64,000 nucleotides of DNA. Origin: Adenophora triphylla var. japonica (lineage: Eukaryota > Streptophyta > Magnoliopsida > Asterales > Campanulaceae). Within the stretch, counting starts at the first letter, position 1; the number at the start of each line of letters is the position of its first letter. The DNA lies in the NCBI GenBank assembly GCA_022495995.1, contig JAFEMH010000075.1, positions 310,001-374,000 on the forward strand. Direction: 5' to 3'. The translations under genes were made by a program, and so were the position numbers. A model generated the notes under the pieces. That model was given only the letters and a program-made list of their open reading frames with translations. It searched no databases and had not been told where the DNA came from. Positions 40,494-59,066 of the stretch are shown one piece after another.

Positions 40494-42634
40494 GAGCCCC
40501 TCGACAACGTCACTTATGGAAGAAGTGAGGTTGTCGATAAAAGGACCCAATCTCAATGAGCAGCAGGGGGATAAGGCGGAGGGCTGGACGGTGATCTGGG
40601 GAATCGGATGGCTGGACCTTTGGAGAAAGGATTCCTACGTATCCCTGGGAGGGAATTGAGCCGGTCGTAGTTCGGAAGAAACTAATTGAGGGGGGTCTGA
40701 ACATAGGGAAAGCTACTTGAAGGTCTCTTGACCTAGAAGGGATTATTTGAAGGTCTCTTGACCTAAAAGGGGAAATATTTGAAGGTCTCTTGACCTAAAC
40801 GAGATTGTTTGAAGGCATCACAACCTAATAGGGATCATTTGAAGGTCTCTTGACCTAACAGGGATTATTTGAAGGTCTCTTGACCTAAACGAGATTATTT
40901 GAAGGCATCACGACCTGAAAAGGATTATTTGAAGGTCTCTTGACCTGAAAGGGATCATTTGAAGGTCTCTTGACCTAAACGAGATTATTTGAAGGCATCA
41001 TAACCTGAAAGGGATTATTTGAAGGTCTCTTGACCTAAAAGGGATTATTTGAAGGTCTCTTGACCTAAAAGGGATTATTTGAAGGTCTCTTGACCTAAAA
41101 GGATAATTTGAAGGTCTCTTGACCTAAAAGTGGTTATTTTAAGGTCTCTTGACCTAAACGAGATCATTTGAAGGCATCACAACCTGAAAGGGATTATTTG
41201 AAGGTTTCTTGACCTAAAAGAGATTATTTGAAGGTGTCCAACCTGGAACAGGATTTAATGCTTCTAGCAAAGTAATCGACTGAGATATGCTTTCATACCT
41301 GTGCTGTGCTTACCTGTAGCTTTCGGAGGGTCCTATGCTACTACTGCTGTTGACAGTTGCTGGGTGCGGGGCGGTTTTTGTCGACTGTTGGCTTTGGGTT
41401 CTGGGACCTTTCCTGCTTTGACGGGAACTTTGCTTGCTGGGGATTGGATTCTTGTTCGTGCTTTGGCGGTGGGGCCTATCTTTGTTGACGGTTGACTTTT
41501 ATGTCTCGAGCTTTGCTTGGTAAGCCGGGGACTTTGATTGTTGGGCAGCGAACTCTTATTGACGCTTTGGCGGCAGGGCCATCTTTGTTGACGGTTGGCT
41601 TTGTGTCCCGAGCTTTGTTTGGTAAGCCGGGGACTTTGCTTGCTGGGCAGCGAACTCTTATTGACGCTTTGGCGGCGGGGCCATTGATCTTGATGCGCGC
41701 TGCTGGGGAGACTCAAATAGACACGGATTCTTTGTCTTGATCGTGCTTTGAGGAGCAATCTTTGAGATTCGGTGCAGCTTCGTTGATCATTGTACCTGCG
41801 GGGGTAGATGTAGCTGGGGGAGGGTCGCATGCTACTGCTTGATGACCGTGGCTGCCGGAGGGATCTATACCACTTGTCGATGCTTACTGGGTGGCCGTTC
41901 ACGGGACGGTCTTTGCAAAATAGGCTTTGAAGTCGTCTAGACTGGTGAGCATTATTGCCTGGATTATGGGGCAGCTAGGGCTCTTTTCTTTGACAAGCAC
42001 TGCTTGGAGGCTGAGGCAGCTAAGGCTCTTTCAGATGATGCTGGTGAGTCCGGGCCTGACGCAGATAATAAAGGCGGGGTCTGCCACCTGCAGGATTTGG
42101 AATTCTCGTCCCAAAATTGTGATTCGAGGGGCAATCCTCACGATCAGATTATGATCACTTGATTATTGTACCCTGCGGGGGGAAAACACAACACTTCTAG
42201 GCACTTTGCACTTTATTTGACTTTTTTCTTATGCATTATTAATCTTTTGTTGCACAAGTCCATCTCAGCTGGGGAGAATAGGAAGTAGGGATTTGGCTCG
42301 ACTTGACGAGCAAATATGTCTGTATCATTTGCTCTATGAGGGAACGAAAGTGTTTATAACGGGGTGGACCCCCTCCCATGAGGTGGGAAAATAAAATGGC
42401 GCAGCTAGACAAGTCAGGGACGCTTCCGAGAGTACAGATTGCAGCAGGTCCATTGCTAGTGAGGACAAAGTGTATTGCGCGTCAGAAACAGCCAGCAGCA
42501 GAGAAAGTTCAGAGAATGATCCCGGCTTGATGAAGCCCCAGTTGACAGTGCAAAGCAAACCTGGAGGGAATCTGGTAAGGGGAGCCGGAGGGATACCTTA
42601 ACCAAAGCCCCAGCTTGAGGTAATTCCATGCAGC
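40494..42634 (-). mobile_element. Element E internal region, part 1, with AGGTC/GACCT array
   Basis: Starts with the polypurine tract (40494-40505) and a CTACG/CGTAG motif (40630-40674). About 18 units of roughly 30 bp (about 40715-41250) carry AGGTC-TCTT-GACCT hairpins with the linker AAAGGGATTATTTGA. A 111 bp unit with TTGACGCTTTGGCGGC is repeated about 2.5 times at 41402-41690. Near 42520-42570 the sequence matches D (33800) in reverse complement. No gag or pol is seen. It ends at the GCAGC duplication, where C inserted. Confidence 0.75.
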
Positions 42635-43713
42635 TGTGAATACCCCGTCCCGATGCAACGCGCATTCGGAGGTTTGAAATAAATAATTATATAAAGTCGA
42701 ATCGAAATGGGATATTCATTTAGTGACACTCGATTTAAACCATATTAAAATATTAGTTTAATTTTGAGAGTCGCCACGCCACTTTGATATAGCCCAAAGC
42801 TTTGAAAAAAGGCTAAACATGTAATTGGGTTCGGGGGGGGGTCAAGTTACAACAGAAGAAGAAACGCTATCACTCCTATTGCCCGACGGATCGGTCTTTC
42901 TAGCATATGGGGTGTTGGTTGTGTGCGGTGTTTACAGGAATAGATAGAAGAAACGGGATCATGCATAAGGAGGAGGGGAGAGAAAGAATTAATTGATGAT
43001 CACACCCTAGAACATTTGAGTTAGGCCCTCGGAAGGTGCACTAATCAACGTTCATCCTTGGGGGATTGTTGATCATGGGACAATTATAACTAAGGTGGAA
43101 GGAAAGAGATAGTTCCTAGATCCATTGGGTTTCTTTGGGCGAAACCTTAGATCATCCTCGGCTATGCACCATTAAATATATTAAAACAACCCTAAATCTA
43201 GCATATATGGCATAGGCAAGAAATAAAGTAATTAAAATATTCTAAGCATGCAAACAATAATAATAAAGACAATAATAAAGAACAAGAATATTAAAAAGAG
43301 AGTCTTACCAATTGTAGCAAGACTTTGGGGTCGAATCTTGGCGATTCGAAAGGAAAAAGAAGAACTGAGGGTAAAGCAAGTGTAGTCTCGCTTCTCCCGT
43401 ATGAAATTGTGTGTGAATATGGGGAGCCGGGCACCCCTATTTATAATACCTCGGTACCTGGGCTGGGCCTCTAAAGGGTCGATCGGCGCTAGGGCTGAAG
43501 GGTCGATCGGCTCTAAATAAAAGGGTCGATCGGCTCTACCACGGGCAAAGGGCCGATCGGCTCTTCTAACTGGCGTACCTTCCAAGCTGACAGTGACGGC
43601 GCTGGTACGGACGAATTAAATGATTTTTTAGGGTTTTCTAGGGTTTCGCTAGGGTTTATTAATTAACCGGGCCAGGTATTTGGAATACCCTTTTTTCGGA
43701 CCGGGTACTAATA
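42635..43713 (-). repeat. 3' LTR of element C
   Basis: 1079 bp. The minus-strand start is TATTAGTACCC, one base off the TGTTAGTACCC of the 5' LTR. Four CGATCG motifs lie at about 43478-43561 and a minus TATA (TATAAATAGGGG) at about 43436-43447. Hairpin arms AAGCAAG and CTCGCTT (43374-43393) enclose TGTAGT, equal to ACTACA in sense. Confidence 0.93.
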
Positions 43714-44060: not shown

Positions 44061-44063
44061 AAA

Positions 44064-44611: not shown

Positions 44612-44770
44612 AGGGCCGATCGGCCCTATGCTCTGATTGGCTGGGGCCATTTGACGAGGATCGGGGTCGCCAGGGAGAGATCCTGGCCGTTCGATCAGGC
44701 GGAAGAAGCACAAAATGGGAGGGCCGATCGGCCCTTGACTCCCATTGGCTAAAAAAGCGGCCGATCGGCC
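44612..44770 (+). promoter_or_regulatory. PMD1 promoter palindromes AGGGCCGATCGGCCCT
   Basis: Perfect 16 bp palindromes at 44612-44627 and 44720-44735, and GGCCGATCGGCC at 44759-44770. The first two are each followed about 8-10 bases later by ATTGGCT, an inverted CCAAT box. No TATA is obvious before the start codon at 44895; the interval is CT-rich. The core equals that of the C and D LTR arrays. Confidence 0.65.
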
Positions 44771-44894
44771 TTAAGAGTCACGAACTCTCCTTCTCCAATT
44801 CACTTTCTTCTTCTTCCTCTGAACTTCTTCCTCTCTGCCGAGTTTCTTGAAGGTTTTCGCCGGAGTTCCCTTGATTTTGTGCCGAGATTTCACC

Positions 44895-47284
44895 ATGAAT
44901 CCTCCAGATTGGGTTGAAGATGTGATTTCTTTGATGAATCGCCCGGACCACCAACCTTTGGGATCGTACACCGGTATGGGTGATGCTTCTTATGGCCAAG
45001 GCGGAGGAGTTGGTGCTAGTGGCTACGGCGCCGGGGGTAGCCGCGGTTCTGACAGTTTTAGGGGCGGTTTTGGTGATATGGGTGGTGGTTTTGGTGGTGG
45101 TTATGGAGGTTATGGAGGTGGCAGCCATGGCGGCAGCGGTGGTGGTCACGGTGGTGCTGGTGGCGGCAGCCATGGCGGTGATGGCGGTGGGTATGGCGGC
45201 AACGATGGCGGCCATGGCGGGAATGGTGGAAATGATGGTGGTGATGATGATGAAGAGGAGGTTGATGTTGATGCCGGGGAGAGTGACCGGAGTGACGCCG
45301 GCGGGAATGCCGAGGCTAGGAGGCGGCGAGCTTCGCGTAATTATCGGCCTTCGAGGCTGTTCGTTCTGTTGCACAACCAGGCGGATTTTTACGCGGGCCT
45401 GAATTTTCATGGATCCACTGGTCTTCGCTCCCGCGTCGGGATGAAGGTACAATTTTTATTTAACAACATAATAATTGATACATGTGCAAAGTATTTTATT
45501 ATTTAAAATGCGAGTAATGACACATACCTGTGCTGTGTTTACCTGCAGATGAAGAAGATGAAGGGACGTAGTTCCCTTAAGGCGGTTGGTGAGCTGTGGG
45601 CGCTTTTGCCGGCCGGTGAGGGTGGTCCTCGCGAGATGGTGTGGAACTTGGGGTTGGGCCCCTTCTTTGATATGGTTGCACTGATGGGTCAGACCCGGAA
45701 GTGTAATGCTGTGGTGAAGGTGTGTCGTGAGTTTTGGTGGGACACGACACATACTTTCCATCTGAGTTGGGGTGAGACTACGATCACTCCTACTGACTTC
45801 GCCGTCCTCACCGGGTTGAGATTTACAGATGTAGTGTTGCCTTTTGATGAGACCCTACACTCTGATAAGGCTCGTCAGATCCAGCTGTTCGGCGCTAGTG
45901 TTGGCCCGAGCAGGAATTTCGGTGTTGACGCAGGGAAGCTGTACAAGCTTGTTGAGACTGCTATCGATCGATACAGAGTCGGTCAGTATGGGATGGACAC
46001 ACTTGTCCGGGGATTCCTCTGGTACGGCTTATCAGTGGCTCTCTTTCCCAACTCGGGCCCGGTGTGCCGATTCTCTTTATTGGGTGCTTTGTCTGACTTG
46101 GACTTAGTGCGGTATATTTCTTGGGGAGGGGCCGGCTTGGCTGAGCTGTACCGGGCCCTTGACACTGTCTCGAGGTCCAACACCTCTTCTTTTGATGCTT
46201 TTCACTTTGTACTGGAGGTACGCTAACTCTTGTCATTTTCATTACCTCTTACTTGTTACTTGTCTTTCCGTTTTTTGTAACTATCTGCTTTTCTGTCTTT
46301 TGCAGGCTTGGGTTTATGAGATCTTCGGCGTTGCGCCTTTCACCTTACGGGACCAGACTCGGGATGTGCCCGTCTTGCGGTACTGGAGGAAGGAAAACCG
46401 GGTTGAGGGGTATCCGAAGACGGTTCGTGAATCTGATTTGAGGGCCGTGTTTGATGGTCCCAGTAGACCTGAGTTTTTACTCTTTCCATGGACCCCTGAG
46501 GCTTCTGAGGCTGTTGGTGCCGTTCGGGATGTTACTGCTTCCCGCAGACTGCTGGTTGGATTGCTTGCCGATGAGATGTATCTGGGCGAGCGGGTGTCGA
46601 GACAGCACCATGCGTGGGCTCCTCTTTATGCGCCACAGCACCCTCCCAAGAATATGTGGTACCCAGACCGACTGCCGAGGAGGATGGAGTATCTATATGG
46701 GGTCCCCGCTTATCACTTCCGCCTTGACATGCCTTATGTAGATTTTGTGGCTCTCTTTCTGAGATCACCGCAGGTGGTGCGGCGGGCTGCTGCGGATGCC
46801 CAGGCTGCTGGTATGGGGGAGCAGGATCCGGTTATTCCTGAGCAGATGGGTGCTCCACCTCCCGAGATAGTAGATATGCCTCCATTTCCCGACCACTTCT
46901 TTGTACATATGGCCGACGGGGAGGTGAGGGTAGACTTGACACCCACAGAGGCTGACGAGGTCGAGGGTGCTCATCTTCCTCCTGGCGGTGCTGGCGGGGT
47001 ATGCCTTTTATCTTTCCTCTTCATTTCTGGTACTTATACTTTAGCTGTGATGTAACTCTCGCCCTTTGATTTTTCAGGTCACTCGGGAGTCTTATGTGCG
47101 GTCAGTGAGGCACAGCAATGTACTGACCCGTCTGCTGAGGAGTGCAGTGGCGGCGCTTTCTTGCCAATCCCGGAGATCGGTAGATGTGGATCCGGCACAG
47201 TGGAGACAGCGCTCCCAGGGTGAGGGTAGCTCGACATCCGGATTTTCTCGCGGTCGTGCCTCGACTTCCCGTAGGGGTCATTAG
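44895..47284 (+). CDS. Intact four-exon plant mobile domain protein, antisense in element C
   Basis: Exons 44895-45446, 45549-46217, 46306-46998 and 47078-47284 are all phase 0 with GT...AG introns, giving 706 codons. Exon 1 starts MNPPDWVEDVISLMNR, then has a glycine/histidine-rich stretch (residues about 33-117) and an acidic patch (DDDEEEVDVDAGE). The PMD core begins in exon 2 (FWWDTTHTFHLSWGETTITP, then TDFAVLTGLRF) and runs through exon 3 (AWVYEIFGVAPF to the VDLTPTEADEV region). Exon 4 is serine/arginine-rich (SRGRASTSRRGH). PMD proteins (aminotransferase-like; MAIN/MAIL type in plants) are nuclear and some affect transposon silencing. The start was chosen as the ATG in ACCATGAA, past an upstream in-frame ATG at 44847. 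Its role in the element is unknown. Intact frames and introns argue for selection or recent activity. Confidence 0.88.
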
Positions 47285-47628
47285 GATTTTTCATTTTTAT
47301 GTAGTACCTGTTAGGAAAACGGAGCATGCAGACTCTATATTTTATGCTGACTCACTCATGTATGCAATTGATTTATGTACTAGTTTATGGATTTAATATA
47401 TATAAAAGTTAGTCTTTTCTATTTATGTACATTTCTATTTTTGGACATTATCTATTTTTGTACACTGCATTGGACACACGAGGACAAAGCAAAATAAAGT
47501 AAAAATTGAAAATAGAAAATAATAATAAATAAAGAATAAAGATAAAAAATAAAATAAAAGAACAAAAAAGGTGGGGCCTTGGAATCTGTTGAAGCTGCTG
47601 AAGTGGAGCCGTTTTCTGGAGAGGCCAA
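47285..47628 (+). other. 3' flank of PMD1 and spacer to PMD2
   Basis: A/T-rich 3'-UTR-like sequence followed by an A-rich tract (47490-47570). No gene seen. Confidence 0.55.
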
Positions 47629-47631
47629 AGA

Positions 47632-47817
47632 GTCGATCGGCCCAAATAAAAAGGTCCGATCGGCCCAAAATTATAGGTCCGATCGGCCCTATGCTGAAAA
47701 GGCGGCGGTTGGTCTTCCTGGAAGGGGCCGATCGGCCCTCCGATGTCCTTTCCCTACACGGATTATTCTGGCAGTCCTTTTCCTGTACGGATTTTAATAT
47801 CAAACCCATATAAATAC
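47632..47817 (+). promoter_or_regulatory. PMD2 promoter: four CGATCGG palindromes and TATA box
   Basis: GTCGATCGGCCC at 47632, TCCGATCGGCCC at 47655, TCCGATCGGCCC at 47678, and GGGCCGATCGGCCC at 47725-47738. A TATA box (TATAAATAC) is at 47809-47817, 75 bases before the start codon. Array then TATA repeats the layout of the D LTR promoter. Confidence 0.7.
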
Positions 47818-47891
47818 CTTACCCAGCGACGGCATAAACACACTTTTCTCTTCTTCGTACTGTTCTCTTTTCTCTGCCTTGGGCAAGCACA

Positions 47892-49313
47892 ATGAATTCT
47901 CATCCCTCCGTCTTGATGGAGAAGCAAAACAATTTTGAGAGTGATTTGGCCGTTTGGGTATCCAAAGTACCTCGTTCTGTTCGCCATGCTTTTGATAAAC
48001 GCTTTGGGGTGAAGTGTATTTGGTCTCTTTTGCCCATGCATCCCAACTGGAATCTCCTACATGCTGCAGCTGCTTTTTGGGACGAATCCAATCACGTTTT
48101 CAATTTTTCTTACAACGAGATTACACCCACCTACGAGGATTTTCTTGCTCTGTGCGGAGGGGATGATGTCAGTTTGATAGCGGTTCCGCAGGATCGAGTT
48201 CCATTGGTGACAAGGGTGGCCAAATTTCTGCGCATCCCTACAGCTGTGGCTAGAGGTTTGGTTGAAGGTGTAGACATAGATATCTGTGATCTGCCGGGGA
48301 GATTTGCCCATGGTGATGACTTTGACTCGGATTTTGCTTTGGATTGCCTGGCCCTCTGCTTATTTTCCAAGGTTCTGTTTTCTCCTTATGTGGGTGTAGC
48401 TACCAGTGGATGCTTGGATATGGTTGATCAGGCCCGTTCGGGGAGGAGCATCATTCCGGTTCTCTTGGGCGAGACACTCCATGGTATATCTCAGATAGCT
48501 AAGGGTGCCCCGCTTATGACTAGGGGCAGTGCCAAATTACTGACCACGTGGCTCGAGGATCGACTTTTTGTTCTAGAGATTCCCCCTTCGAGTGTTAGGC
48601 CTTGGTTTCATGGTTGTAGGAGGAAGATTGATCCGCTTTCCGGCTTGTCAGAACGGGAGTGGAAGATGTATTTGGCGGAGGTGGATACTGATAGGATTCA
48701 TTGGCGAGTACAGCATTGGGGCCTCTCCTTCATTCGGAGCCTTCAGCTTGGGCAATGCCTGATTCGTGTACCAGCTTTTGAGACCACCACTTTTTATTAT
48801 GCAGAGCGGGTACTTCGGCAATATGGCATGGAGCAGGTCCGTCCTCAAACTTGGGGGACTTCTGAGTTTGATGATTCTGCAAAAGTCCTTCCAATGGACG
48901 TTGGTGTTTCAGTTTTGATGGTAAGCTTATGGAGTTCTCATGGGATGCCACGAGTCTATCTTGCACAGCGGACCCTTAGCACTCATTTGTCGCATGCTTA
49001 TTTGACATGGTATGAAGAAAACTTGGGACCGATGAGGGAGACTTTGTATGACTTGAGACGGAGATTGGTCCCTAACATATCTTCGAGCCGTTTTCTCAGA
49101 GACAGGGAGGCTTTGGGGATTTCACTAGACACAGTGGAGGAGAATCCTCCCAAGAAGATGGAGCGGAAGTTGAAGGGTAAGGCGATCGAGGAGGTTCCCC
49201 CATGGAAGAAGAAGTATTCGCCTTATTTTAAGAGAGAGAATAAGAAGAAGCCGACTCGACGAGCTGCCAAGAAGAAGAAGGACGGAGATGAGGGGCCTAG
49301 TGCCAAGGAGTAG
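47892..49313 (+). CDS. Intact PMD-like protein 2, antisense in element C
   Basis: A single exon of 473 codons. It starts MNSHPSVLMEKQNNF, then VRHAFDKRFGVKCIWSLLPM and AFWDESNHVFNFSYNEITPT, then YEDFLALCGG. This is the pattern of PMD or the related DUF7745 family seen in plant retroelement-linked genes. The last 60 residues are lysine-rich (KKMERKLKGK, then ENKKKPTRRAAKKKKDG), a likely nuclear localisation signal. It is convergent with pol, whose stop is at 49825. The decayed homologue in B (12618-14150) keeps the position and orientation. Whether it binds DNA is not shown by the sequence. Confidence 0.85.
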   Translation: MNSHPSVLMEKQNNFESDLAVWVSKVPRSVRHAFDKRFGVKCIWSLLPMHPNWNLLHAAAAFWDESNHVFNFSYNEITPTYEDFLALCGGDDVSLIAVPQDRVPLVTRVAKFLRIPTAVARGLVEGVDIDICDLPGRFAHGDDFDSDFALDCLALCLFSKVLFSPYVGVATSGCLDMVDQARSGRSIIPVLLGETLHGISQIAKGAPLMTRGSAKLLTTWLEDRLFVLEIPPSSVRPWFHGCRRKIDPLSGLSEREWKMYLAEVDTDRIHWRVQHWGLSFIRSLQLGQCLIRVPAFETTTFYYAERVLRQYGMEQVRPQTWGTSEFDDSAKVLPMDVGVSVLMVSLWSSHGMPRVYLAQRTLSTHLSHAYLTWYEENLGPMRETLYDLRRRLVPNISSSRFLRDREALGISLDTVEENPPKKMERKLKGKAIEEVPPWKKKYSPYFKRENKKKPTRRAAKKKKDGDEGPSAKE

Positions 49314-49824
49314 ACCTTATACGTCCGAGTATCCACCCACAGTCATATGCAGACACATTAGTTATTTATTTTGTCTTTTAATTTTTTAGTTTCTTTTGCA
49401 AGTTATTTAGTCATTAGTATAGTCGAGCTTAGACTCATCAAATAAGTGTAATCATGCATTGATTGTGGGAATGAAAAAAGTTTATTTCTTTAGTAAAAAA
49501 CAGATTGGATTTTTATTTATTTTTTGGACCGCGCCGATTAAGGCTGCCTACGTTCCCCTTTTACAATGAGAACCAAGGGGCTCAGGTCGTCGTAGTTCAT
49601 TTTCATCAAGCTACTATTTTTAGAAAGGGGAGATAGAAGCGGGACAATTTTTATTTTATTTGCTCTAACTTTTGCCTAGACCGCCCTTTACGGGTTTTCA
49701 ATCTAGCGAGCTTTTGAACGCACCCTTTCTTTTATTGCTAGACCGCCCTTTGCGGGTTTTCAATCTAGCGGGCTTCTTTTTGCGTTTTTTTTTTTTTTTT
49801 TTTATTTAGAGGGGGAGGAAGAGC
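49314..49824. terminator. Spacer between convergent PMD2 and pol with paired hairpin repeats
   Basis: Two copies of TAGACCGCCCTTT(A/G)CGGG followed by TTTTCAATCTAG (about 49676 and 49739). The CTAGA/TCTAG arms can pair outside CGCCC/GGG. A CTACG/CGTAG motif lies at 49542-49598 with inner arms CCCCTT/AAGGGG. The block sits where two transcription units meet tail to tail, and the same block is present in B. A terminator or polyadenylation role is inference. Confidence 0.5.
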
Positions 49825-52800
49825 TTAATCATAGTAGCGTCTGAGCTTGCTGAGGTTGGTGGGCTCCTTGAATTCGTTGCCGTCCAAATCTGCCATTTTA
49901 ACTGCTCCACCCGAAAATATCTTCTTGATCACATACGGGCCGGTCCATGTAGGGGCCCACTTCCCAAGAGGATTGAACTTGTTGGGAAGTTGCTGCTTCA
50001 AAACCAAATCTCCTTCCTTAATGTCTAAGGGCTGCACCTTTTTGTTGAAAGCCCTTGCTGTCCGTCTTTGATAGGCTCGGATGTGTTCCATGGCTTTGAG
50101 TCTGCGCTCGTCAAGTGTGGCCAACTGATCATATCGACTACGGAGCCATTCAACTTCTGCTACTTGATTCTCTAATAAGATCCTCAAAGACGGGACTTCC
50201 AACTCAACCGGGAGTACTGCCTCCATCCCATATGTCAGAGCAAAAGGAGTTTCACCTGTAGCTGTACGAACGGAGGTTCTATATCCCCAAAGTGCCAGTG
50301 GTAGTTTCTCGGGCCAGTCCCTACCTCGAATTGCTGTCTTTCTGATTATCTGCTCAATCGTTTTGTTAGCTGCTTCGACTGCTCCGTTGGTCTGAGGCCT
50401 ATAAGGGGAAGACTTGTGCCGGGTAATCTTGAACTCTGCCAATAATTTGTCACAATCTCCGCCGAAGTGGGACCCGTTGTCCGAGATAATCTCATTTGGT
50501 ACTCCATATCTGCACATGATGTCCTCCTTAATGAACTGTGCCACCTTTTTGGAAGTCAACACCTTGTAAGATTTTGCCTCGATCCACTTGGTGAAGTAAT
50601 CCACTGCTACTAATACAAAACAATGCCCGTTGCTTCCCGGCGGTGTAATCTTGCCAATCACATCAATCCCCCATGTCGCAAATGGCCAAGGGGTTACCAT
50701 GCTATACAACTCGTGAGGGGGCACATGGTTCAAATTGGAACACATTTGGCATTTGGGACATTTCCGCACAAACTGGATGCAGTCGGCTTCTATAGTGACC
50801 CAATAATAACCCAACCGTGTGATTTTCTGTCTCAACATTCTGGCATTCATGTGTGGACCGCATAAGCCATCGTGTACTTCTTCCATGATCATTTCTGCTC
50901 GTTTCGCGTCTACACAGAGTAACAGGAGACCATCGTAGTGTCTTTTGTACAACATATCATCTAGTAGAACAAACTGTCCGGCCAATCGCTTCAATGCCTG
51001 CAAACTTTTGGCTTTCACGTCACCTAGAAAAGACACATTACCCTTCTTGAGATACTCATAAATCTGTATGTACCACGGATCCTTATTCTCCTCGGTGTCA
51101 GCTTGAATCTCGCAGCAGTAGGCTTCGTAGCAGTAAGCGGGGTTCTCTCTTCGGCCAACTCTGAACGGTTTTACAGACATTCCGTGAGGGATCTCGACCA
51201 AAGAAGCCAGTGTGGCTAAAGCGTCGGCAAATCTATTTCTGTCTCTGGGTAGATAATGGAATGTTACCTCCCTGAATTGCTTAACTAGCTCTTCCATGTG
51301 AATCTGGTACTGCTGCAGGTAGGGGTCAACAGTCTTCCACTTCTTAGACGTCTGATTGATAATTAAAGCTGAGTCTCCATATACCTCCAACTCCTTTACA
51401 TTACGCTCCAAGGCTGCTTCTAAGCCAGCTATGCATGCCTCGTATTCAGCCGCGTTATTGGTGGTTGTAAAATTCAGCTTGATGGCGATGGGGGTGTGCT
51501 CATCTTTGGGATCAACCAAAAGGATTCCCACTCCATTGCCCCTCTTGTTCGCGGCTCCATCAAAGAATAGTTGCCATCTCTCTTCCGTATCAATGCTAAA
51601 AATCCCTTCGTCTGGAAATTCTGGTTCAAGCCCCTGTTCTTCTGTACTTGGAAACTCTGCTAAATGATCCGCCATGGCTCTCCCTTTAACTGCTTTTCTC
51701 GGCACATAGGTGATATCGAATTCCCCCAGAAATACCGACCACTTGGCTAATCTCATGGACAGAGAGGGTTTGTCGAACAAATACTTAATTGGATCCATCT
51801 TTGACACTAGCAGAATCGGATGCGCTGACAAGTAATGCTTGAGCTTATTAACCACCCAAACTAGCCCGGTACAGGTCTTTTCCAATGCTGAGTAGTTTAG
51901 CTCACTCCCCTGCAATTTTCGACTAACAAAATAAACGGCGTTCTCCACCCGAGAGTCCTTGGCTTCTTGTGCCAGCATAGCCCCAACGGCTGTATCAGTT
52001 ACTGTTAGGTACAATAGCAATGGTTTCTCCGAATGTGGGGGGCGAAGGATAGGGGGATTGACCAAGTATCTCTTGATTTCCTCAAAGGCTTCTTGACATT
52101 TCCAGTCCCAATCTATACTTGCGGTCTTCTTCATCAATCTAAAAATCGGCTCACACATGGTAGTTAATTGATTAATGAAGCGGCTGATGTACTGTAACCG
52201 TCCCATGAATCCCTTAACTTCTTTTTCTGTGCGTGGTGGCCTCATCTCCATGATGGCTTGAATCTTCCTTGGATCTGCCTCAATCCCTCGTTCGGTGACC
52301 ATGTAGCCCAGGACCTTTCCTCGAATAACTCCAAATGTACACTTGGCAGGATTCAGACGCATTGCGTGCTCGCGCAGTCTGTCGAAGAACTTTCTTAAAT
52401 CAATGAAATGCTGACCGTCTGACCCCTTGGAATGAATGATCATATCGTCGACATACACCTCAATCTCTTTATGGATCATGTCATGGAATAATGCTGTGAC
52501 CGCTCTCTGGTATGTAGCCCCTGCATTTTTCAATCCGAATGGCATTACAGTGTAACAGTATGTTCCCCATGGTGTAGTGAAAGCCGTCTTCTCCTGGTCT
52601 GCCTCCGCCATCTTGATCTGATTATATCCTGCAAAACCATCTACAAAAGACTTGACCTCGTAGTTGGCAGTGGCATCTACTAGCATGTCGATATTGGGCA
52701 ACGGGAAGTCGTCCTTTGGGCTAGCCTTGTTGAGATCTCGGAAGTCAACACAAACTCTAACCTTGCCATTCGATTTACTGACCGTCACAATATTAGATAA

Positions 52801-53418
52801 CCACGTCGGATACTCAATAACTCTGATAAAGCCTACCCGGAGGAGCTTCTCTATCTCTTCTTTAACTTGCAGAGACCATTCTGGCTTAATGCGGCGCAAT
52901 TTCTGTTTGACAGGCTTGGCGTCTGGTGTTAGCGGTATTCTGTGCTCCACTATCGAGTTATCCAGCCCCGGCATATCCTTGTATGACCATGCGAACACAT
53001 CCGAATATTCTTTAAGCAGCTCAATCAATGCTTCCCTTTCAGTCCCTTCGAAGAAGCTTCCAATCTGTGTCTCTCTCGGCTCTTCTTCCGTTCCCAAATT
53101 AATACATGATAACACCTCATCGGCAGCTTGGGCCCGACCTTCCTTTTGATTGATAACTTGCTTAGAAATTTCTTTAATGTATTCATTGTTTAGTGTGTCC
53201 GCTTCTTCTAATGAGTCATTATTAACTAAGTTAATTTGATTAAGTTGAGCATTATTTTTAGTTAATTTATCATTAAGAAGATTGGCTATGAGGGGATACT
53301 CAGAAAGATCTAGTTTTTCATTCATAGCGAAAGGGAAAACAACATTTGCAACTAATTCATAGTCTTCTGACGTGAGGTCATCGCACTTGGAAGACGACTC
53401 AAACTCAAAAGAAAACAC
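49825..53418 (-). CDS. pol: Pol polyprotein of element C: RT, RNase H, second RNase H, integrase
   Basis: The 1197-codon open frame copies the element's RNA and integrates the cDNA. Reverse transcriptase spans about residues 165-365 with YVDD at 322-325. The classical RNase H is about 465-590. A second, archaeal-type RNase H is about 615-740 (FFDGAANKRGNGVGI, NNAAEYEACIAGL, YGDSALIINQ, DRNRFADALA), a hallmark of the Tat lineage. The integrase zinc-binding HHCC is near 849-893 (CPKCQMC). Catalytic residues are D919, D980 (SDNGSHFGG) and E1015. A GPY/F-like module is near 1165 (WTGPYVI). No chromodomain is seen. The start Met lies in an acidic linker and may not be the true N-terminus, since gag-pro-pol is probably one polyprotein. 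Confidence 0.93.
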   Translation of the reverse strand: MFSFEFESSSKCDDLTSEDYELVANVVFPFAMNEKLDLSEYPLIANLLNDKLTKNNAQLNQINLVNNDSLEEADTLNNEYIKEISKQVINQKEGRAQAADEVLSCINLGTEEEPRETQIGSFFEGTEREALIELLKEYSDVFAWSYKDMPGLDNSIVEHRIPLTPDAKPVKQKLRRIKPEWSLQVKEEIEKLLRVGFIRVIEYPTWLSNIVTVSKSNGKVRVCVDFRDLNKASPKDDFPLPNIDMLVDATANYEVKSFVDGFAGYNQIKMAEADQEKTAFTTPWGTYCYTVMPFGLKNAGATYQRAVTALFHDMIHKEIEVYVDDMIIHSKGSDGQHFIDLRKFFDRLREHAMRLNPAKCTFGVIRGKVLGYMVTERGIEADPRKIQAIMEMRPPRTEKEVKGFMGRLQYISRFINQLTTMCEPIFRLMKKTASIDWDWKCQEAFEEIKRYLVNPPILRPPHSEKPLLLYLTVTDTAVGAMLAQEAKDSRVENAVYFVSRKLQGSELNYSALEKTCTGLVWVVNKLKHYLSAHPILLVSKMDPIKYLFDKPSLSMRLAKWSVFLGEFDITYVPRKAVKGRAMADHLAEFPSTEEQGLEPEFPDEGIFSIDTEERWQLFFDGAANKRGNGVGILLVDPKDEHTPIAIKLNFTTTNNAAEYEACIAGLEAALERNVKELEVYGDSALIINQTSKKWKTVDPYLQQYQIHMEELVKQFREVTFHYLPRDRNRFADALATLASLVEIPHGMSVKPFRVGRRENPAYCYEAYCCEIQADTEENKDPWYIQIYEYLKKGNVSFLGDVKAKSLQALKRLAGQFVLLDDMLYKRHYDGLLLLCVDAKRAEMIMEEVHDGLCGPHMNARMLRQKITRLGYYWVTIEADCIQFVRKCPKCQMCSNLNHVPPHELYSMVTPWPFATWGIDVIGKITPPGSNGHCFVLVAVDYFTKWIEAKSYKVLTSKKVAQFIKEDIMCRYGVPNEIISDNGSHFGGDCDKLLAEFKITRHKSSPYRPQTNGAVEAANKTIEQIIRKTAIRGRDWPEKLPLALWGYRTSVRTATGETPFALTYGMEAVLPVELEVPSLRILLENQVAEVEWLRSRYDQLATLDERRLKAMEHIRAYQRRTARAFNKKVQPLDIKEGDLVLKQQLPNKFNPLGKWAPTWTGPYVIKKIFSGGAVKMADLDGNEFKEPTNLSKLRRYYD

Positions 53419-55377
53419 ATCGACTCAAACAAAATGTATGACTCGAAGAAACAGAGGACTTGGGGGAACCAGGGGAGACTCAACAGAGGAGGCATCGCCC
53501 CAGCTCTTCAACCATGTATTCTTTCGTGGCTACGGTCCGCCAAATACGCACCAATTCTTCACTTTCCAACCATGGGTGTCACCAACGTCCTTGGATCCGT
53601 ATCGTCCGCCCTGCTTCCGCCCCAATGACTCGCAACCATATCATCTTCTATATTCGTATTCCCCAAATGCCGCAAATGTGTTCGACCATCCCATTCTTCT
53701 CGCATCCTCTCGAAACCGCAATGTTCTCAACCAACGGCTCATCCAAAGATACCGCCCTAGCCGATCGACCAACTCATCTTCGCCTTGATGATGTACCGGC
53801 TCTGATCGTGACAACCTTGCCTCTCTTTTGACGTGGATCCATGAGAACCGTCTTCGCCTTCGATCTATCAACCTCTCGTATCTCTGAAGATTTCGAAACC
53901 CTTCGCAGCCTCGCCCGTATGATCAAACCAAGGCTCGCTAAACTCCATGCAAGAGAATTCTTCGCCCTCCTTAACAAAGTAACTATTGAGGGAAAGGCGG
54001 TATGGCCTCATCTCTCGCTGTTGGTAGGGCAGCTTCACTCTTTTGATGTATTCAATTCTTTCCATTTCGGCTTTATCTTCGGGAGTAAGGACGTAGCCTA
54101 GACCTTGGTGGCTGCGGTGATCAATAGCCTCCACTATTTTCGTGGGTCCTTGGAGATGCCTGCCAAGACCCAGTCCTGGTATAAATCCCATGTTTCTCAT
54201 CATTCTTATAGCCGGCCGTACTGTCTCGATGTCTTTGTGAGATCTACCGCGCAAACCTCGCGCTCGTGCTATTAGCTGAAAAACGCTGAACATAGAACTA
54301 CCCTCTTCGTGCTGAATCTGCAGGACTGGCTTTCCCCCAGTGCTTGTTCCTTGAGATGTTACCAGATCGCTGTAAATGACTGTCACTTGATCGCCCGACT
54401 GGAATTTCACACATTGATGCAATGAGGAAGGGACTCCATTCATCTGATGCAACCATGGCCTACCCAAAGAAGATGGTGAAGGTGGACGGTATGTCTATGA
54501 CTTGAAACTCAAAGAATCATAGTAGTGGTCCCGCAAGTAAGGGGCAACCGATTATTCCCAAAACCGACCGGCTAGTAGAATCGTATCCCCGCACGGAATG
54601 AACTCAAGGTCTCAAATCTCGTGGGACTTAGATCAAGGACGTCCATCATCCTGGAAGGCGTATGTTCACCGCAGAACCGTTGTCAATGAAAATACGTGGC
54701 AACCTTTTTCCGTTAACTTCAATAGTAATGTACAGTGGTTCATTATGATCCGATCCAAACTCCGGCATGTCCAACTCTGAAAATGTAATGATATTCCCAA
54801 AGTGTATGTTGCTGATCATCTGCGTTACATCTTCTGGCTTTGTATCGACGGCACCAAAGTCGCAAAGCAAGATTCTCGTTCCAACATCATCCTGTGGGCA
54901 TACGAGGACGTTAGCAAGGACCATAAGGATATATTGGCTTGAGTTAACTTCATTGAGTGAGAATAGGGTCTTCTTTATCGGGATTCACTACTTCGGTTTC
55001 GGACCAAACACTTTCTTCGCCCCTCTATCTTCTCGGTTGATACACCTTTCCGGACCTCGTGAGTAGACTAACCCCATTCTTTTCCATATCGATACTTCTG
55101 CGTGAATTTCAGCCAACGAGAGAGGTTTAGGACTCTCTTCCACATAATCACCATTTAACGAGGCAACTTCTCTAGACAGCTCCTCAAAAGACAAAGCATA
55201 TAACAAGAAAATTCTTTATAAATTGAACTCAAATTACAACCGACACAACCGCCTCACCGTCCGTCACAACAGACTCGACCGGATCGTGAGGTCTTTCTCT
55301 ACCATAGCAATACCACTACCAACTATCTTACTAGGATTCTCTATCTTCCCTTCAATGATGAGTTTCGCACGCCCTTT
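53419..55377 (-). pseudogene. Protease and G-patch region of element C, frame interrupted
   Basis: Coding signal lies in several minus-strand frames. 55206-54988 has SWKRMGLVYSRGPERCI-like sequence ending KKVFGPKPK with two adjacent stops at 54985-54990. 54924-54646 has the protease strand (PLYITIEVNGKRLPRIFIDN, then GSAVN; active site DNGS). 54467-53868, in another frame, has GRPWLHQMNGV and a G-patch-like MRNMGFIPGLGLGRHLQG. 53867-53419 has no clear domain. At least two frame changes are needed to join gag to pol. An intron, as described between protease and RT in Ogre elements, could explain only part of this. The rest looks like damage in this copy. Confidence 0.7.
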
Positions 55378-57069
55378 TCAAAGCAAAACCAAGCATACTC
55401 GGAGAGTTTCGGCACGAACAATCCCTTTCGACAATAGCCGAGAATACATCTTCTCGTCGACAGCCCCCAGTTTCTCAAAAGCATCTTCCATCTCTACCAA
55501 GCTGATAAAATTACCTTCCACCATGTGGATCTTGTTGTTAGGGAGAGGATTCACCACAAAGTTTGGAGACTTCGGCTTCTCTACCTTACCTTGCCGAATC
55601 AAGTCTTGCACTAAACGCTTGAACTGAAGGCGAATCGCAGTGTGACCCTTGTACTTGTGGTAGTGGCAATACTTAGAAGCATCTAAGCCTTCCTTCGGGT
55701 TTAACGGTTCATAATTCTCAAGCGGCTTGACCAACCCCTTCTTCACTAGCACTTCAAAAACCTTGCCCATTGGCATTCCAAAATCATCAAATACTTCCCT
55801 CTCGCGGTGAATACTGTTATTCCCCCTCATTACGGCTTGAACATCCAAAGCAGCTTCCCCTTGCACATAATTTACTTGCCCCACGGGCTCTTTCTTTGCT
55901 GCGGTATTTGCGGGAGTTCTATAGCGGAATGAATTATTAGCAGCCCCAGTGTCCTTTAGTGGAGCGATTCCGGTGATGCCACTCTCATATCGTACGCCCG
56001 AATCCACCATTTCCCTAAGATTGGGAAAGTAACCATTACCAACTGCCAACTTGTGTCCAGGCAACAAGCACTTGTAAAAAATCTGTTTCTGTTCATTTTC
56101 CTTGGGCGGATACTGAATTTCGCTCAACTTATCATTCCAACGTTTGTAGAAGTCATAAATCGACTCTCCATTCTTTTGAAGCGTGTGCTCCAAATCAGCT
56201 CTATTCACTTGCCAATCCATGTTTGCTTGATACTTTTCAGAGAACACCCTACTAACCTTGTCCCATGTGTCCCTTTCCTCCTCGTTCAACTTCAGAAACC
56301 AACGGAGAGCAGCCCCTTCCAATGTGCTATGGAACATTCTTGCCATTTTCTCGGGTGTACAGTCTTTGGCCCTCATCGCCAACGTATAGCTGTCTAAATG
56401 TGTCTTTGGGCAAGTAACTCCTCCAAACATGGCCATCTTGGGCATCTTGAAATCTTGAGGTAGGGGTGCAACTTTGCTCGGATTAAGCATCTTGATGGGG
56501 GACACACCTTGCTTTCCCATTTGCTCGGTCAATGCCTTCACTTGTTCAATCAATGCTAACACAGTCGGGTCCGTAGCAATGTTGGAGTTCTGCATGGCTG
56601 GGGGTTGAGTGATGGTAGGGGAGGTGGAGTAGGTAGGGATATGATGGCCGGAATAATTGAAGGGTAAAGTGGGAGGGGGTAGATTAGCAAAGTGGTCCTT
56701 GGGTGTGTTGGCAGGAGGTTGATAAGGTCTTTTGGATTTGCTTGAGCTCCCATACATGTCAGGTGGTGGAACATTGTTGTAGCTGTTTGGAACATAGTTG
56801 GGTAGAGGGAAGGTAGGTGCATTGGGATTGGCGGGATTAGGAGCATTGACAGTTTCATCTTCAACATCGACCACTTCATTCCCCATCAAGATAACCTTGT
56901 GTCCCCTTTTACTGAGTTCCTCAACAAAATGATCCTTCAGCTCTTGATTGTGATTCTTCAAGGTGCGATTCTGCTCTTCAAGTTTCTCAACCCTCATGGT
57001 TAAACCGGCAAAGTAGGCGTGCAGAGCAGGCGGAATGTCATTGAAGTCGGGGTTGGCAAGACCTTCCAT
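55378..57069 (-). CDS. gag: Gag protein of element C
   Basis: 563 codons. The N-terminal coiled coil is MRVEKLEEQNRTLKNHNQEL (near residues 26-45), followed by a proline-rich stretch with THL and YSTSP repeats. The Retrotrans_gag capsid domain lies in the middle (LRWFLKLNEEERDTWDKVSR, KYQANMDWQVNRADLEHTL, YDFYKRWNDKLSEIQYP). Near the C-terminus the zinc-knuckle-like CHYHKYKGHTAIRLQFKRL lacks the final cysteine kept by the D remnant (GHTTDRC). It ends in frame zero, the same frame as the protease fragment, at a TGA/TAA-type stop at 55378. It forms the particle that packages element RNA. Confidence 0.92.
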   Translation of the reverse strand: MEGLANPDFNDIPPALHAYFAGLTMRVEKLEEQNRTLKNHNQELKDHFVEELSKRGHKVILMGNEVVDVEDETVNAPNPANPNAPTFPLPNYVPNSYNNVPPPDMYGSSSKSKRPYQPPANTPKDHFANLPPPTLPFNYSGHHIPTYSTSPTITQPPAMQNSNIATDPTVLALIEQVKALTEQMGKQGVSPIKMLNPSKVAPLPQDFKMPKMAMFGGVTCPKTHLDSYTLAMRAKDCTPEKMARMFHSTLEGAALRWFLKLNEEERDTWDKVSRVFSEKYQANMDWQVNRADLEHTLQKNGESIYDFYKRWNDKLSEIQYPPKENEQKQIFYKCLLPGHKLAVGNGYFPNLREMVDSGVRYESGITGIAPLKDTGAANNSFRYRTPANTAAKKEPVGQVNYVQGEAALDVQAVMRGNNSIHREREVFDDFGMPMGKVFEVLVKKGLVKPLENYEPLNPKEGLDASKYCHYHKYKGHTAIRLQFKRLVQDLIRQGKVEKPKSPNFVVNPLPNNKIHMVEGNFISLVEMEDAFEKLGAVDEKMYSRLLSKGIVRAETLRVCLVLL

Positions 57070-57972
57070 TGAAGTGGCGGTGTAGAGCCGGTTGCGCAGG
57101 CAAAGAGTGCGCTTGGAGTAGTTGATGGAGGCAAGGTTGTCATTGTTGAATGAAGAACGCGGCCCGACCTTAGCTCTGCGGAAGTATCAGAAAAGACTCG
57201 GTTTTAGGACAAGGGTTGACTCAATGCAGTGTACTGGCTTAAAAATTTTTTATTTACAAAAGCTTTGTACATTTTAGTCCTACAAAGGTTGGAAGGGATA
57301 CCCCTTTTTCGCAACTAACTAAATATCCTAAAGTGGTGAATCCTAACGACTAACCTTCTCGTATAGACAGTCAATATGATTTTTATGAAAAGTACCGCAA
57401 ACCAATGATAGGCCAAGATCCTTTAACAATATATAACTCGTTCTCACATAGCACGTCCTTTGAAAGGAAATCAATTTTTTAGTGCTCTTAATCTCTCGAT
57501 AGATCTTGACTTATCATTGGTTCGTGGTGACTTAGCGTAAAGACCCCATTAATTGTCTATATAAAAAAGCTAGTCAAACCAACCGGTCATATGGAGTGTA
57601 TTCCTAGAAAAGTGGGTGACGCAAGGGTTAGGTTTTAGGCTCCCACCGTGCAGCCGAAGCGCACTGATGAGTGGATGGCCAAGTGAGACTCGGAAGGGAG
57701 GCGACATGATCACCACACTTCCCGCACTTTGGCTTCTCCGAAGGGTAAAAAGGGTGTCTGTGCAGTGTGACACGGACTCTAGTGATAGTGTGAGGTGGAG
57801 AAATCTAATTCTTTTTAGAGAAAAAAGAGAAAGATTTTTTTTATTTACATGAAATGCATGCATGCAATGCAACAGTTAAGAGTAAAGAAAATAAAAAGAA
57901 AGCGAAAAAAATACAACACCATACAAGAAAACGAAAGTCTGACCCACTTAGTTTGAAAAGATTTCAAAACAG
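57070..57972 (-). other. Leader of element C
   Basis: Non-coding, colinear in reverse complement with D 28389-29095. No conserved protein. It presumably carries packaging signals. Confidence 0.75.
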
Positions 57973-57990: not shown

Positions 57991-57991
57991 C

Positions 57992-59066
57992 TGTGAATAC
58001 CCCGTCCCGATGCAACGCGCATTCGGAGGTTTGAAATAAATAATTATATAAAGTCGAATCGAAATGGGATATTCATTTAGTGACACTCGATTTAAACCAT
58101 ATTAAAATATTAGTTTAATTTTGATAGTCGCCACGCCACTTTGATATAGCCCAAAGCTTTGAAAAAAGGCTAAACATGTAATTGGGTTCGGGGGTCAAGT
58201 TACAACAGAAGAAGAAACGCTATCACTCCTATTGCCCGACGGATCGGTCTTTCTAGCATATGGGGTGTTGGTTGTGTGCGGTGTTTACAGGAATAGATAG
58301 AAGAAATGGGATCATGCATAAGGAGGAGGGGAGAGAAAGAATTAATTGATGATCACACCCTAGAACATTTGAGTTAGGCCCTCGGAAGGTGCACTAATCA
58401 ACGTTCATCCTTGGGGGATTGTTGATCATGGGACAATTATAACTAAGGTGAAAGGAAAGAGATAGTTCCTAGATCCATTGGGTTTCTTTGGGCGAAACCT
58501 TAGATCATCCTCGGCTATGCACCATTAAATATATTAAAACAACCCTAAATCTAGCATATATGGCATAGGCAAGAAATAAAGTAATTAAAATATTCTAAGC
58601 ATGCAAACAATAATAATAAAGACAATAATAAAGAACAAGAATATTAAAAAGAGAGTCTTACCAATTGTAGCAAGACTTTGGGGTCGAATCTTGGCGATTC
58701 GAAAGGAAAAAGAAGAACTGAGGGTAAAGCAAGTGTAGTCTCGCTTCTCCCGTATGAAATTGTGTGTGAATATGGGGAGCCGGGCACCCCTATTTATTAT
58801 ACCTCGGTACCTGGGCTGGGCCTCTAAAGGGTCGATCGGCGCTAGGGCTGAAGGGTCGATCGGCTCTAAATAAAAGGGTCGATCGGCTCTACCACGGGCA
58901 AAGGGCCGATCGGCTCTTCTAACTGGCGTACCTTCCAAGCTGACAGTGACGGCGCTGGTACGGACGAATTAAATGATTTTTTAGGGTTTTCTAGGGTTTC
59001 GCTAGGGTTTATTAATTAACCGGGCCAGGTATTTGGAATACCCTTTTTTCGGACCGGGTACTAACA
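57992..59066 (-). repeat. 5' LTR of element C
   Basis: 1075 bp. The minus strand starts TGTTAGTACCCGG and ends GGTATTCACA. CGATCG motifs and the minus TATA occur as in the 3' LTR. Followed by GCAGC (59067-59071). Confidence 0.94.

Follow-up and report, generated by a model that had tools for sequence, protein, structure and literature searches.

Paired antisense PMD genes and family-specific palindromes shared with the LTR in Tat-clade retrotransposons of Adenophora triphylla

A 16.4-kb Tat-clade Ty3 retrotransposon of Adenophora triphylla var. japonica, element C of the studied window (the whole 64,000-nt stretch of DNA analysed), carries two PMD-type genes, PMD1 and PMD2, antisense to gag-pol, and both are under purifying selection. 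Four families of the 2.48-Gb genome (B, C, E, and F), diverged from one another, contain the pair, with constant order and strand. Moreover, CG-NN-CG palindromes of the general form Y-CG-NN-CG-R, specific for each family, are located in U3 of the LTR as well as ahead of the PMD genes, and vary jointly between families, clearly in C and F, partially in B, and weakly in E. Judging from this arrangement, we lean, if only slightly, toward a PMD cassette that controls or un-silences its own LTR and genes, with the family palindromes as operators.

Near-identity of the LTRs of C, proposed in the first-pass annotation, holds: they are 99.08% identical over 1085 aligned positions, and a direct repeat, GCAGC, borders the element on both sides as a 5-bp target site duplication (TSD). 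The pol frame (1199 aa) comprises RT_RNaseH (466–569), RVT_3 (621–739), and rve (914–1010). In the Ogre/Retand group of Tat, RNase H and integrase are described as separated, by rule, by a second RNase H of archaeal type (PMC6317226); C has this domain, and its TSD falls within the 4 or 5 bp of the group. The gag-pol of C is broken into frames of 602, 208, and 1199 codons; elsewhere in the genome, in a score-selected list, it is a single open frame of up to 2461 codons. Hence, the word "intact" is appropriate for the PMD genes of C, and not for the element as a whole. Coordinates are given in Table 1.

Table 1. Features of elements B, C, and D in the window.
Feature	Position	Strand	Basis or comment
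Element B LTR palindrome TCCGCGCGGA	6890..6899	.	motif scan
Element B PMD1 remnant	10379..10738	+	tblastn, 31.5% aa
Element B palindrome ATCCGCGCGGAT, upstream of PMD2	12485..12496	.	
Element B PMD2 remnant	12696..12929	+	tblastn, 39.7% aa
Element B other LTR palindrome TCCGCACGGA	24045-24054	.	motif scan
U3 of element D (in which no pol was found), with five palindrome sites of the C type	27406..27540	.	motif scan
TSD GCAGC of C, left	42630..42634	.	flank sequence
3' LTR of C (element read on minus strand)	42635..43713	-	99.08% identity to other LTR
Array 1, LTR U3 of C: four AGGGCCGATCGGCCCT-type sites, 12-nt cores at 43477, 43501, 43524, 43551	43475..43564	.	
Array 2, before PMD1, with cores at 44614, 44722, 44759	44612..44772	.	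motif scan
PMD1 exon 1 (Gly-rich, then acidic stretch)	44895..45446	+	reading-frame analysis
PMD1 exon 2	45549..46217	+	frame and Pfam
PMD1 exon 3	46306..46998	+	frame and Pfam
PMD1 exon 4	47078..47284	+	reading-frame analysis
Array 3, before PMD2, with cores at 47631, 47654, 47677, 47726	47629..47739	.	
TATA-like CATATAAATACC, 85 nt before PMD2 ATG	47807..47818	+	putative promoter
PMD2, single exon, PMD/DUF7745-like, basic C-terminal tail	47892..49313	+	uninterrupted 473-codon frame
Conserved non-coding stretch between convergent PMD2 and pol ends	49314..49824	.	0.972 mean identity, 19 copies
pol of C: RT, RNase H, second RNase H, integrase	49825..53424	-	
G-patch ORF of C	53868..54494	-	ORF/profile analysis
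gag of C	55378..57186	-	ORF/profile analysis
5' LTR of C: palindrome cores at 58830, 58854, 58877, 58904	57992..59066	-	
TSD GCAGC of C, right	59067..59071	.	flank sequence

The earlier observation of the antisense pair in C is confirmed: the four exons of PMD1, separated by GT..AG introns of 102, 88, and 79 nt, join into an uninterrupted 706-codon frame, and the single-exon PMD2 has no interruption either. As also noted before, both genes survive in element B as degraded pieces whose order and orientation match those in C. The assignment to PMD is secure for PMD1, which scores 90.3 bits (E=1.8e-25) with Pfam PF10536 (cut-off 34.9). PMD2 is below the cut-offs of both PF10536 (28.0 bits) and DUF7745 (PF24924; 24.7 bits, cut-off 26), and is therefore filed as a sub-threshold relative of both. 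Pfam scans of the two proteins give matches to PMD and DUF7745 alone. A protein database search with PMD2 and PMD1 exon 2 yielded no matches at E≤0.001, in a collection that missed the window's own protein and hence is uninformative on plants; PDB searches gave nothing meaningful (best E 0.09 and 0.052), and a single-sequence structure model of PMD2 failed (pLDDT 33.9). No literature on DUF7745 was found in an incomplete search, and we know of no demonstrated DNA binding by PMD. In print, PMD is listed among the domains without an assigned function (PMC8616336).

Of 52,028 candidate PMD2 matches in the genome, the top 90 by PMD2 score include 85 that lack an internal stop, a recurrence that chance would not explain. 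Among the 20 C-family copies ranked next after the window's own, PMD1 accompanies PMD2 in 19, with order and strand kept, the exception (L021) having no PMD1. The DUF7745 profile produced 118 scored matches, all above the cut-off (15,523 candidates); the five fetched ones are PMD2 genes of family F, which was found without using the palindrome motif, and L037 is a further F copy with a different insertion upstream. The claim that several divergent elements retain a pair of distinct antisense PMD-type genes, of which one has introns, stands.

In these 19 copies, picked by PMD2 and not by PMD1, dN/dS of PMD1 exons 2–4 is 0.06–0.27; the value of 0.76 obtained for L021 came from a spurious alignment and was discarded. 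For PMD2, dN/dS is 0.02–0.12 in all 20 copies, the values being biased as the copies were picked by PMD2 score. Two copies selected by pol gave 0.20 and 0.14 for PMD1 exons 2–4, and 0.19 and 0.10 for PMD2. The pol part has 0.04–0.28 in 20 copies out of 20, calculated from the first whole-region alignment, which was noisy in PMD1; PMD1 was realigned. In family F, two PMD1 stretches selected by match to C yielded 0.10–0.19 in each of the 12 comparisons made pairwise among four copies, with dS of 0.31–0.91. Values near 1 across copies are not observed, with one exception that counts against constraint, PMD2 of L029 compared to the decayed copy L030 (0.97). Small frame-breaking indels are present in PMD1 of the majority of the copies fetched, and a clean reading was obtained for 3 of 20. 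As their numbers in pol are similar, we attribute them to decay or assembly noise, still unhelpful to a functional reading; given this and the selection of the lists by score, frame intactness was dropped as a test of function.

The palindrome of family C, GGCCGATCGGCC, is found in all three places, that is, in U3 and upstream of PMD1 and PMD2. With both LTRs counted, C has 16 sites (at most 2 mismatches in 12), compared to a mean of 0.295 and a maximum of 3 in 200 dinucleotide shuffles. Counted per copy with at most 4 mismatches in 16, there are 3–5 sites at the LTR side (20/20 copies), 3 upstream of PMD1 (19/19 copies with this gene), and 3–4 upstream of PMD2 (20/20); in the pol-selected copies, where the PMD sides were scanned, we observe 3 and 3 sites before PMD1, and 4 and 3 before PMD2. 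In the whole genome, AGGGCCGATCGGCCCT and TATCTCGCGCGAGATA, as exact 16-mers, are present 618 and 5,758 times, and the same letters read backwards, 0 and 0 times.

Conservation was profiled in 19 of the 20 copies (L021, without PMD1, was left out). The 16-nt sites have values of 0.987, 1.0, and 0.97 in array 2, and 0.895, 0.993, 0.954, and 0.934 in array 3, and conservation within and outside the sites is 0.986 and 0.820 at the PMD1 side, and 0.944 and 0.781 at the PMD2 side. One of the seven sites of C before the genes (47631), at the 72.8th percentile, is not above the upper quarter of windows. CpGs within the sites (0.992, n=7; 0.974, n=8) are conserved above those outside (0.785, n=26; 0.754, n=9), opposite to what CpG decay predicts.

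In family F, sites of the TCTCGCGCGAGA type are present in U3 and both PMD promoters, and are kept at the three places in copies at dS 0.31–0.91. The longest word common to three 300-nt promoter windows is 13 nt in C, and 10, 12, and 13 nt in the F copies L034, L035, and L036, lengths reached by none of 500 random window triples in each case. For family B, the PMD1-side ATCCGCGCGGAT site is present in one copy of three, L039 (of 12 letters, L040 matches 7, and B of the window, 9), and hence none of the examined B copies has all three places; shared words as long as those of the pairs U3–PMD2 (L040) and PMD1–PMD2 (L039) turned up in 40 and 41 random pairs out of 1000, B being a family with many tandem repeats. 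The signal of the E palindrome, AGCCGTGCGGC, is weaker: the three windows have 6 nt in common (reached by 474 of 500 random triples), and the best pair, U3–PMD2, 11 nt (21 of 500 random pairs).

When 12-nt words of the four families are compared, the own-family word is the best in 8/8 U3, 10/11 PMD1, and 13/13 PMD2 windows, the words having been derived from those same loci. This comparison covers every window available, which excludes the U3 of L029, L031, L032, L037, and L039 (absent from the fetched piece, or not recognised there) and of L033 (end not located), and the PMD1 sides of L029 and L037. Foreign words score 10 of 12 in four windows, which equals the minimum for own-family words, seen in four clear cases.

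These data suggest a model in which PMD1 and PMD2 would constitute a two-gene regulatory cassette with its own promoters, antisense to gag-pol, the latter presumably driven by U3 with its palindrome array. A PMD protein, probably a homodimer or a PMD1/PMD2 heterodimer, or, alternatively, a factor co-evolving with the PMD proteins, would bind the palindrome of its own family, switching on the LTR and the PMD genes or shielding them from CG methylation, and resulting in a self-recognition circuit of the VANC/VANDAL kind in an LTR retrotransposon. In this model, binding of the palindromes by a factor, the identity of this factor as PMD, expression of the genes, and an activating or anti-silencing effect are inferred.

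It is less probable, though a serious alternative, that host transcription factors bind the palindromes and drive gag-pol and PMD together, while PMD acts on chromatin, RNA, or the particle. The CpG-rich palindromes may resemble the CGCG-box and the BZR1-type CGTGCG, which are known host sites, and the arrays are at promoters near TATA-like sequences, the nearest PMD2-side site of C lying approximately 70 nt above one, and those in L034 of family F being found approximately 15 and 60 nt below sites. However, the word shifts between families at two or three promoters jointly while the symmetric CG-NN-CG core remains constant, and a co-inherited recogniser fits this better than repeated recruitment of host factors.

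Self-limitation, with the PMD pair repressing its own LTR for copy-number control through palindromes as repressor operators, or with antisense dsRNA/siRNA restraining the element, seems to us rather improbable. It would agree with silencing of TEs by the host PMD proteins MAIN/MAIL1 (PMC5418596, PMC7156037), with 175 PHAS loci described at PMD genes in tea (PMC10673657), and with antisense-RNA regulation proposed for aORF-3R (PMC7264820). Yet constraint resides in the encoded proteins, with dN/dS far below 1, and hence RNA alone is insufficient to explain the PMD genes; the sign of regulation, activating or repressing, is not readable from sequence. Passive cargo, in which the genes would be usual Ogre eORFs, constrained weakly or in the past, and recombination of the LTR with PMD upstream regions would have spread the promoter words, is already disfavoured and very improbable: exchange between arrays may happen, as the PMD2 upstream array of L032 aligns with the LTR array of C (45 nt, 80–82%), but dN/dS of PMD is as low as that of pol, and the sites are conserved above their flanks and kept at three places in the diverged F copies.

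The proposed PMD-operated circuit has partial parallels. Ty3/gypsy elements of the Ogre/Tat (OTA) group with PMD eORFs were reportedly described by Steinbauerova in 2011. Like C, Ogre/Tat elements have the second RNase H and a PMD extra ORF between pol and the 3' LTR. The PMD domain was found in 57% of surveyed Ogre elements (Neumann 2019, PMC6317226) and belongs to the extra domains seen most often in plant Gypsy elements (PMC9289625). Unlike the Ogre/Tat elements in the portion of PMC6317226 consulted, C has two PMD-superfamily genes in a fixed order, one with three introns, and common promoter palindromes; a word search of that paper gave no occurrences of "palindrom" or "promoter". The clades PMD-A1/A2 are reported as exclusively Gypsy-encoded, and element PMD as having a common origin with MAIN and MAIL1, silencers of the host (PMC5418596); as a guess, PMD1 and PMD2 may correspond to the two clades. 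That study places PMD clades on a tree, the portion consulted does not mention one element carrying both, and a text search found no "palindrom". Its authors speculate that MULE elements use PMD for anti-silencing, and the idea of counter-silencing by element PMD is also in print (PMC8616336). The first-pass interpretation is therefore partly supported: a self-regulatory or anti-silencing module is favoured in spirit by the family palindromes common to the LTR and PMD promoters, while the novelty of the cargo was overstated, PMD genes of Ogre/Tat being well documented (PMC6317226, PMC5418596).

An antisense gene between pol and the 3' LTR is also described in Grande (gene23, which has a promoter of its own and encodes a nuclear product), Retand (TRP28), and RIRE2, but with domains other than PMD, and the available text mentions no operator shared with the LTR (PMC7264820, PMC11963269). 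An incomplete literature search, partly of excerpts, found no family-specific CG-NN-CG palindrome in U3 and PMD promoters.

A further parallel is VANC/VANDAL anti-silencing, with binding and demethylation shown experimentally (Hosaka 2017, PMC5735166; EMBO Rep 2023, PMC10398659), whereas in C both are predictions. In both cases, a TE-borne protein is accompanied by family-specific short motifs arrayed in the non-coding DNA of the TE and changing together, strongly in C and F, partially in B (PMD1 side in one copy of three), and weakly in E. In contrast, VANDAL is a DNA transposon and C an LTR retrotransposon, VANC motifs are described as one-orientation arrays and those of C are palindromes, and PMD1 and PMD2 match PMD/DUF7745 alone in Pfam.

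A family-specific word common to the LTR and PMD genes makes the function of element PMD a binding question in which a control of specificity is already included. Should PMD bind the palindrome, plant LTR elements would possess a means of self-recognition comparable to that of VANC/VANDAL, and a molecular activity of the PMD domain would become known. More tentatively, Ogre-type elements might have independently evolved sequence-specific anti-silencing, in which paired PMD proteins would read family CG-NN-CG palindromes, operator and recogniser would co-evolve, and MAIN/MAIL1 would be domesticated or counter-adapted members of the recogniser family.

Several minor features were also observed. 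An Rfam scan of 40000–60000 gave one sub-threshold match (plastid leader), which was disregarded. A PBS-like stretch beginning with TGG adjoins the 5' LTR of C, a PBS for tRNA-Arg being a mark of the Ogre subclade, and the conserved non-coding stretch of C between PMD2 and pol has counterparts in B, E, and F.

Both PMD frames that the first-pass annotation placed in element C, the 16.4-kb Tat-clade Ty3 LTR retrotransposon of the window, are present exactly as claimed: the plant mobile domain gene PMD1 and the PMD/DUF7745-like gene PMD2 are antisense to the gag, G-patch and pol frames, which occupy the minus strand. A GCAGC repeat on both sides marks a complete insertion, and LTR divergence, at a substitution rate of 1.3e-8 per site per year, gives it an age of roughly 0.35 million years. 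Introns such as those of PMD1 can outlast retrotransposition, because the RNA that is copied comes from the other strand. The gag-pol region is split between three frames (602, 208 and 1199 codons), with single open frames of up to 2461 codons in other copies in the genome; in element C the PMD genes are intact while the polyprotein frame is broken. A second RNase H is placed between RNase H and integrase of pol, an arrangement by which Ogre and Retand are recognised among the Tat lineages of angiosperms (PMC6317226). The G-patch ORF has a decayed equivalent in element B of the same window, and G-patch domains in Gypsy elements are already on record (PMC9289625).

Features and palindromic sites of the elements and loci studied
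Feature	Coordinates	Strand	Details
LTRs of element C	42635-43713 and 57992-59066		mutual identity 99.08%
PMD1	44895-47284	plus	four exons, 706 codons; GT..AG introns of 102, 88, 79 nt
PMD2	47892-49313	plus	one exon, 473 codons
Non-coding stretch of element C	49314-49824		between convergent PMD2 and pol ends
gag-pol of element C	49825-57186	minus	broken frame
G-patch ORF of element C	53868-54494	minus	between gag and pol
Decayed G-patch of element B	16499-16996
CTACGTATCCC..GTCGTAGTTC unit	43884-43935		beside 3' LTR of element C
CTACGTATCCC..GTCGTAGTTC unit, other sequence	~40630-40680
Element D	27275-37827	plus	LTRs 99.1% identical, TSD ATAAC
gag remnant of element D	31107-31331
Possible solo LTR of family B	L029:167-2077		in 5' part of PMD1 of a family-E element
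Extra family F palindrome AATCTCGCGCGAGATAAGG	L038:884-902		between PMD2 and pol, adjoining conserved non-coding unit
C-type sites, element C			four per LTR, ~150-240 nt from U3 end; three upstream of PMD1; four upstream of PMD2
Sites in L030 (family E)			U3 AGCCGTGCGGC; upstream of PMD1 AGCCGTACGGCT; upstream of PMD2 two AGCCGTGCGG
Sites in L029 (family E)			two upstream of PMD2
Sites in element B			one LTR TCCGCGCGGA, other LTR TCCGCACGGA; upstream of PMD2 ATCCGCGCGGAT
Sites in L039 (family B)			ATCCGCGCGGAT upstream of PMD1 and of PMD2
Sites in L040 (family B)			TCCGCGCGGAT in U3 and upstream of PMD2

The genome (2.48 Gb in 8,432 contigs) was searched with PMD2, and the best 90 of 52,028 candidates were scored, with identity of 94–100%; internal stops are absent from 85 of these, a count that, coming from best-scoring matches, is not a rate of intactness. 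All 20 loci ranked directly after the window's own match element C in its arrangement, with at least a part of the LTR, PMD2 and a part of pol, and 19 of them have PMD1. Compared to element C, dN/dS is 0.02–0.12 for PMD2 (20 of 20 copies, a sample picked by PMD2 and hence biased), 0.06–0.27 for PMD1 exons 2–4 (the 19 copies with PMD1) and 0.04–0.28 for the part of pol compared (all 20). The PMD1 values are free of the selection bias, as the copies were not picked by PMD1. Two copies selected by pol (rows 3 and 12 of 87 in the pol-based list) yield 0.20 and 0.14 for PMD1 exons 2–4, and 0.19 and 0.10 for PMD2. In family F, PMD1 dN/dS is 0.10–0.19 in all 12 comparisons (two stretches, four copies, dS 0.31–0.91); a contrary value, 0.97, is observed for PMD2 of L029 versus the decayed L030, both of family E. 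The PMD1 reading frame is clean in three of the 20 copies, with 0–30 small indels per copy (2.1 kb, 19 copies), likely reflecting post-insertion decay or assembly noise, since indels are equally common in pol (1–26 per copy in about 2.3 kb, 20 copies).

The PMD pair is found in four diverged element families, B, C, E and F. Both genes are present as remnants in element B, and two further family B copies were fetched out of 150 scored matches. In the sister family E, with RT 83–84% identical to that of C, both genes keep the order and strand seen in C, with amino-acid identity in matched stretches of 29–40% for PMD1 and 36–41% for PMD2. Family F was reached via the DUF7745 profile, for which all 118 scored matches lie above the cut-off. 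It also has the C order, with PMD1 identity of 30–39% in the main stretches; its pol is antisense to the pair and matches in two stretches, at 65% and 47% identity. As this layout is constant over diverged families, the pair is an old fixture, diverging fast between families and constrained within them. The cargo type itself is already known (PMD of Ogre-like elements), and is here more elaborate.

In element C, the palindromic 16-mer AGGGCCGATCGGCCCT and its near variants cluster in the LTR U3 and upstream of each PMD gene, with one weak match elsewhere; 16 sites are observed, whereas 200 shuffles give at most 3 (mean 0.295). Every cluster is repeated in the 20 C-family copies, the PMD1-side one in all 19 that have PMD1, and both pol-selected copies have the clusters upstream of PMD1 and PMD2 alike. 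Conservation is 0.986 and 0.944 in the sites versus 0.820 and 0.781 in the remaining same intergenic DNA, individual sites ranking between percentiles 72.8 and 99.8 of 16-nt windows. For CpGs the values are 0.992 (n=7) and 0.974 (n=8) in the sites, and 0.785 (n=26) and 0.754 (n=9) for the remaining ones; as methylated CpG is expected to decay fastest, this retention is good evidence of function. The exact 16-mer occurs 618 times in the genome, and the same letters reversed, zero times.

The C-type site is absent from both family E loci checked, L029 and L030; families E, B and F have palindromes of their own. The PMD1-side site of family B is absent in L040 and element B, and no B copy examined has sites in all three places. 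The family F motif was derived unguided, by listing 12-nt palindromes and shared 10-mers. Sites of TATCTCGCGCGAGATA type are present in the LTR-side region and on the PMD1 and PMD2 sides in all four loci that extend this far (L033–L036; the U3 end of L033 was not located), paired on the PMD2 side at a distance of 19 bp, and also upstream of PMD2 in L037. Exact TATCTCGCGCGAGATA occurs 5,758 times genome-wide (reversed control, 0), and its carriers therefore must be very abundant.

The longest word common to three 300-nt promoter windows was compared with that in random triples. It spans 13 nt in C and 10, 12 and 13 nt in F (L034, L035, L036), each exceeding all 500 random triples. The three-window test failed in family E, with 6 nt common, equalled by 474 of 500 triples; the U3–PMD2 pair of this family shares 11 nt (equalled by 21 of 500), and the family B pairs are equalled by 40 and 41 of 1000. 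When the words of all four families are scored in every family's windows, that of the own family ranks first in 8/8 U3, 10/11 PMD1 and 13/13 PMD2 windows, a diagonal that is partly by construction, because the words were derived from these same loci. Own-family scores are 10–12 of 12 letters, except for 7 and 9 in the two B copies without the PMD1-side site, and foreign words score 6–10.

Hence two constrained genes have in their upstream regions a DNA word in common with the LTR, and this word varies by family. As its CG-NN-CG form persists nonetheless, a putative factor, binding the palindrome as a symmetric dimer, is probably encoded by the element itself, PMD1 and PMD2 being natural candidates; the rival possibility is a host factor as the binder. 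Since each site contains at least two CpGs, binding would probably lead to activation or to shielding from CG methylation, while a rival of the opposite sign is self-repression via the palindromes. An activating or shielding element-encoded binder would resemble VANC21 of VANDAL21, which acts in this way via motifs specific to its family in the non-coding DNA of the VANDAL21 element (PMC5735166, PMC10398659). The annotated gene pair thus stands, and its proposed role as an anti-silencing or self-regulatory module is partly supported, now in a concrete, testable form. In a non-exhaustive survey of the accessible 'plant mobile domain' and 'retrotransposon' literature we found neither a paired antisense PMD cassette nor a shared palindrome, nor a description of the family-specific cis-regulatory code of which the present data give evidence.

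Element D has neither pol nor PMD genes, contains a gag remnant and large tandem-repeat arrays, and is probably a non-autonomous relative, its LTR being 82% identical to that of C. Five C-type sites are retained in its U3, the pattern that trans-acting control would predict.

The non-coding stretch between PMD2 and pol is 97% conserved over 19 copies, beyond most synonymous-site distances. Its counterparts in B, E and F retain hairpin-like CCTAGACCGCCC..CGGG..CTAG units and also a CTACGTTCC..CGTAG unit, in which CCCC/GGGG has undergone a paired change to CCTC/GAGG in family F. The stretch, for which Rfam gives no match, may be a structured RNA with a role in export, packaging or the formation of the 3' end. 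A similar CTACGTATCCC..GTCGTAGTTC unit, 0.98 conserved, is located beside the 3' LTR of C, and recurs in other sequence of the window.
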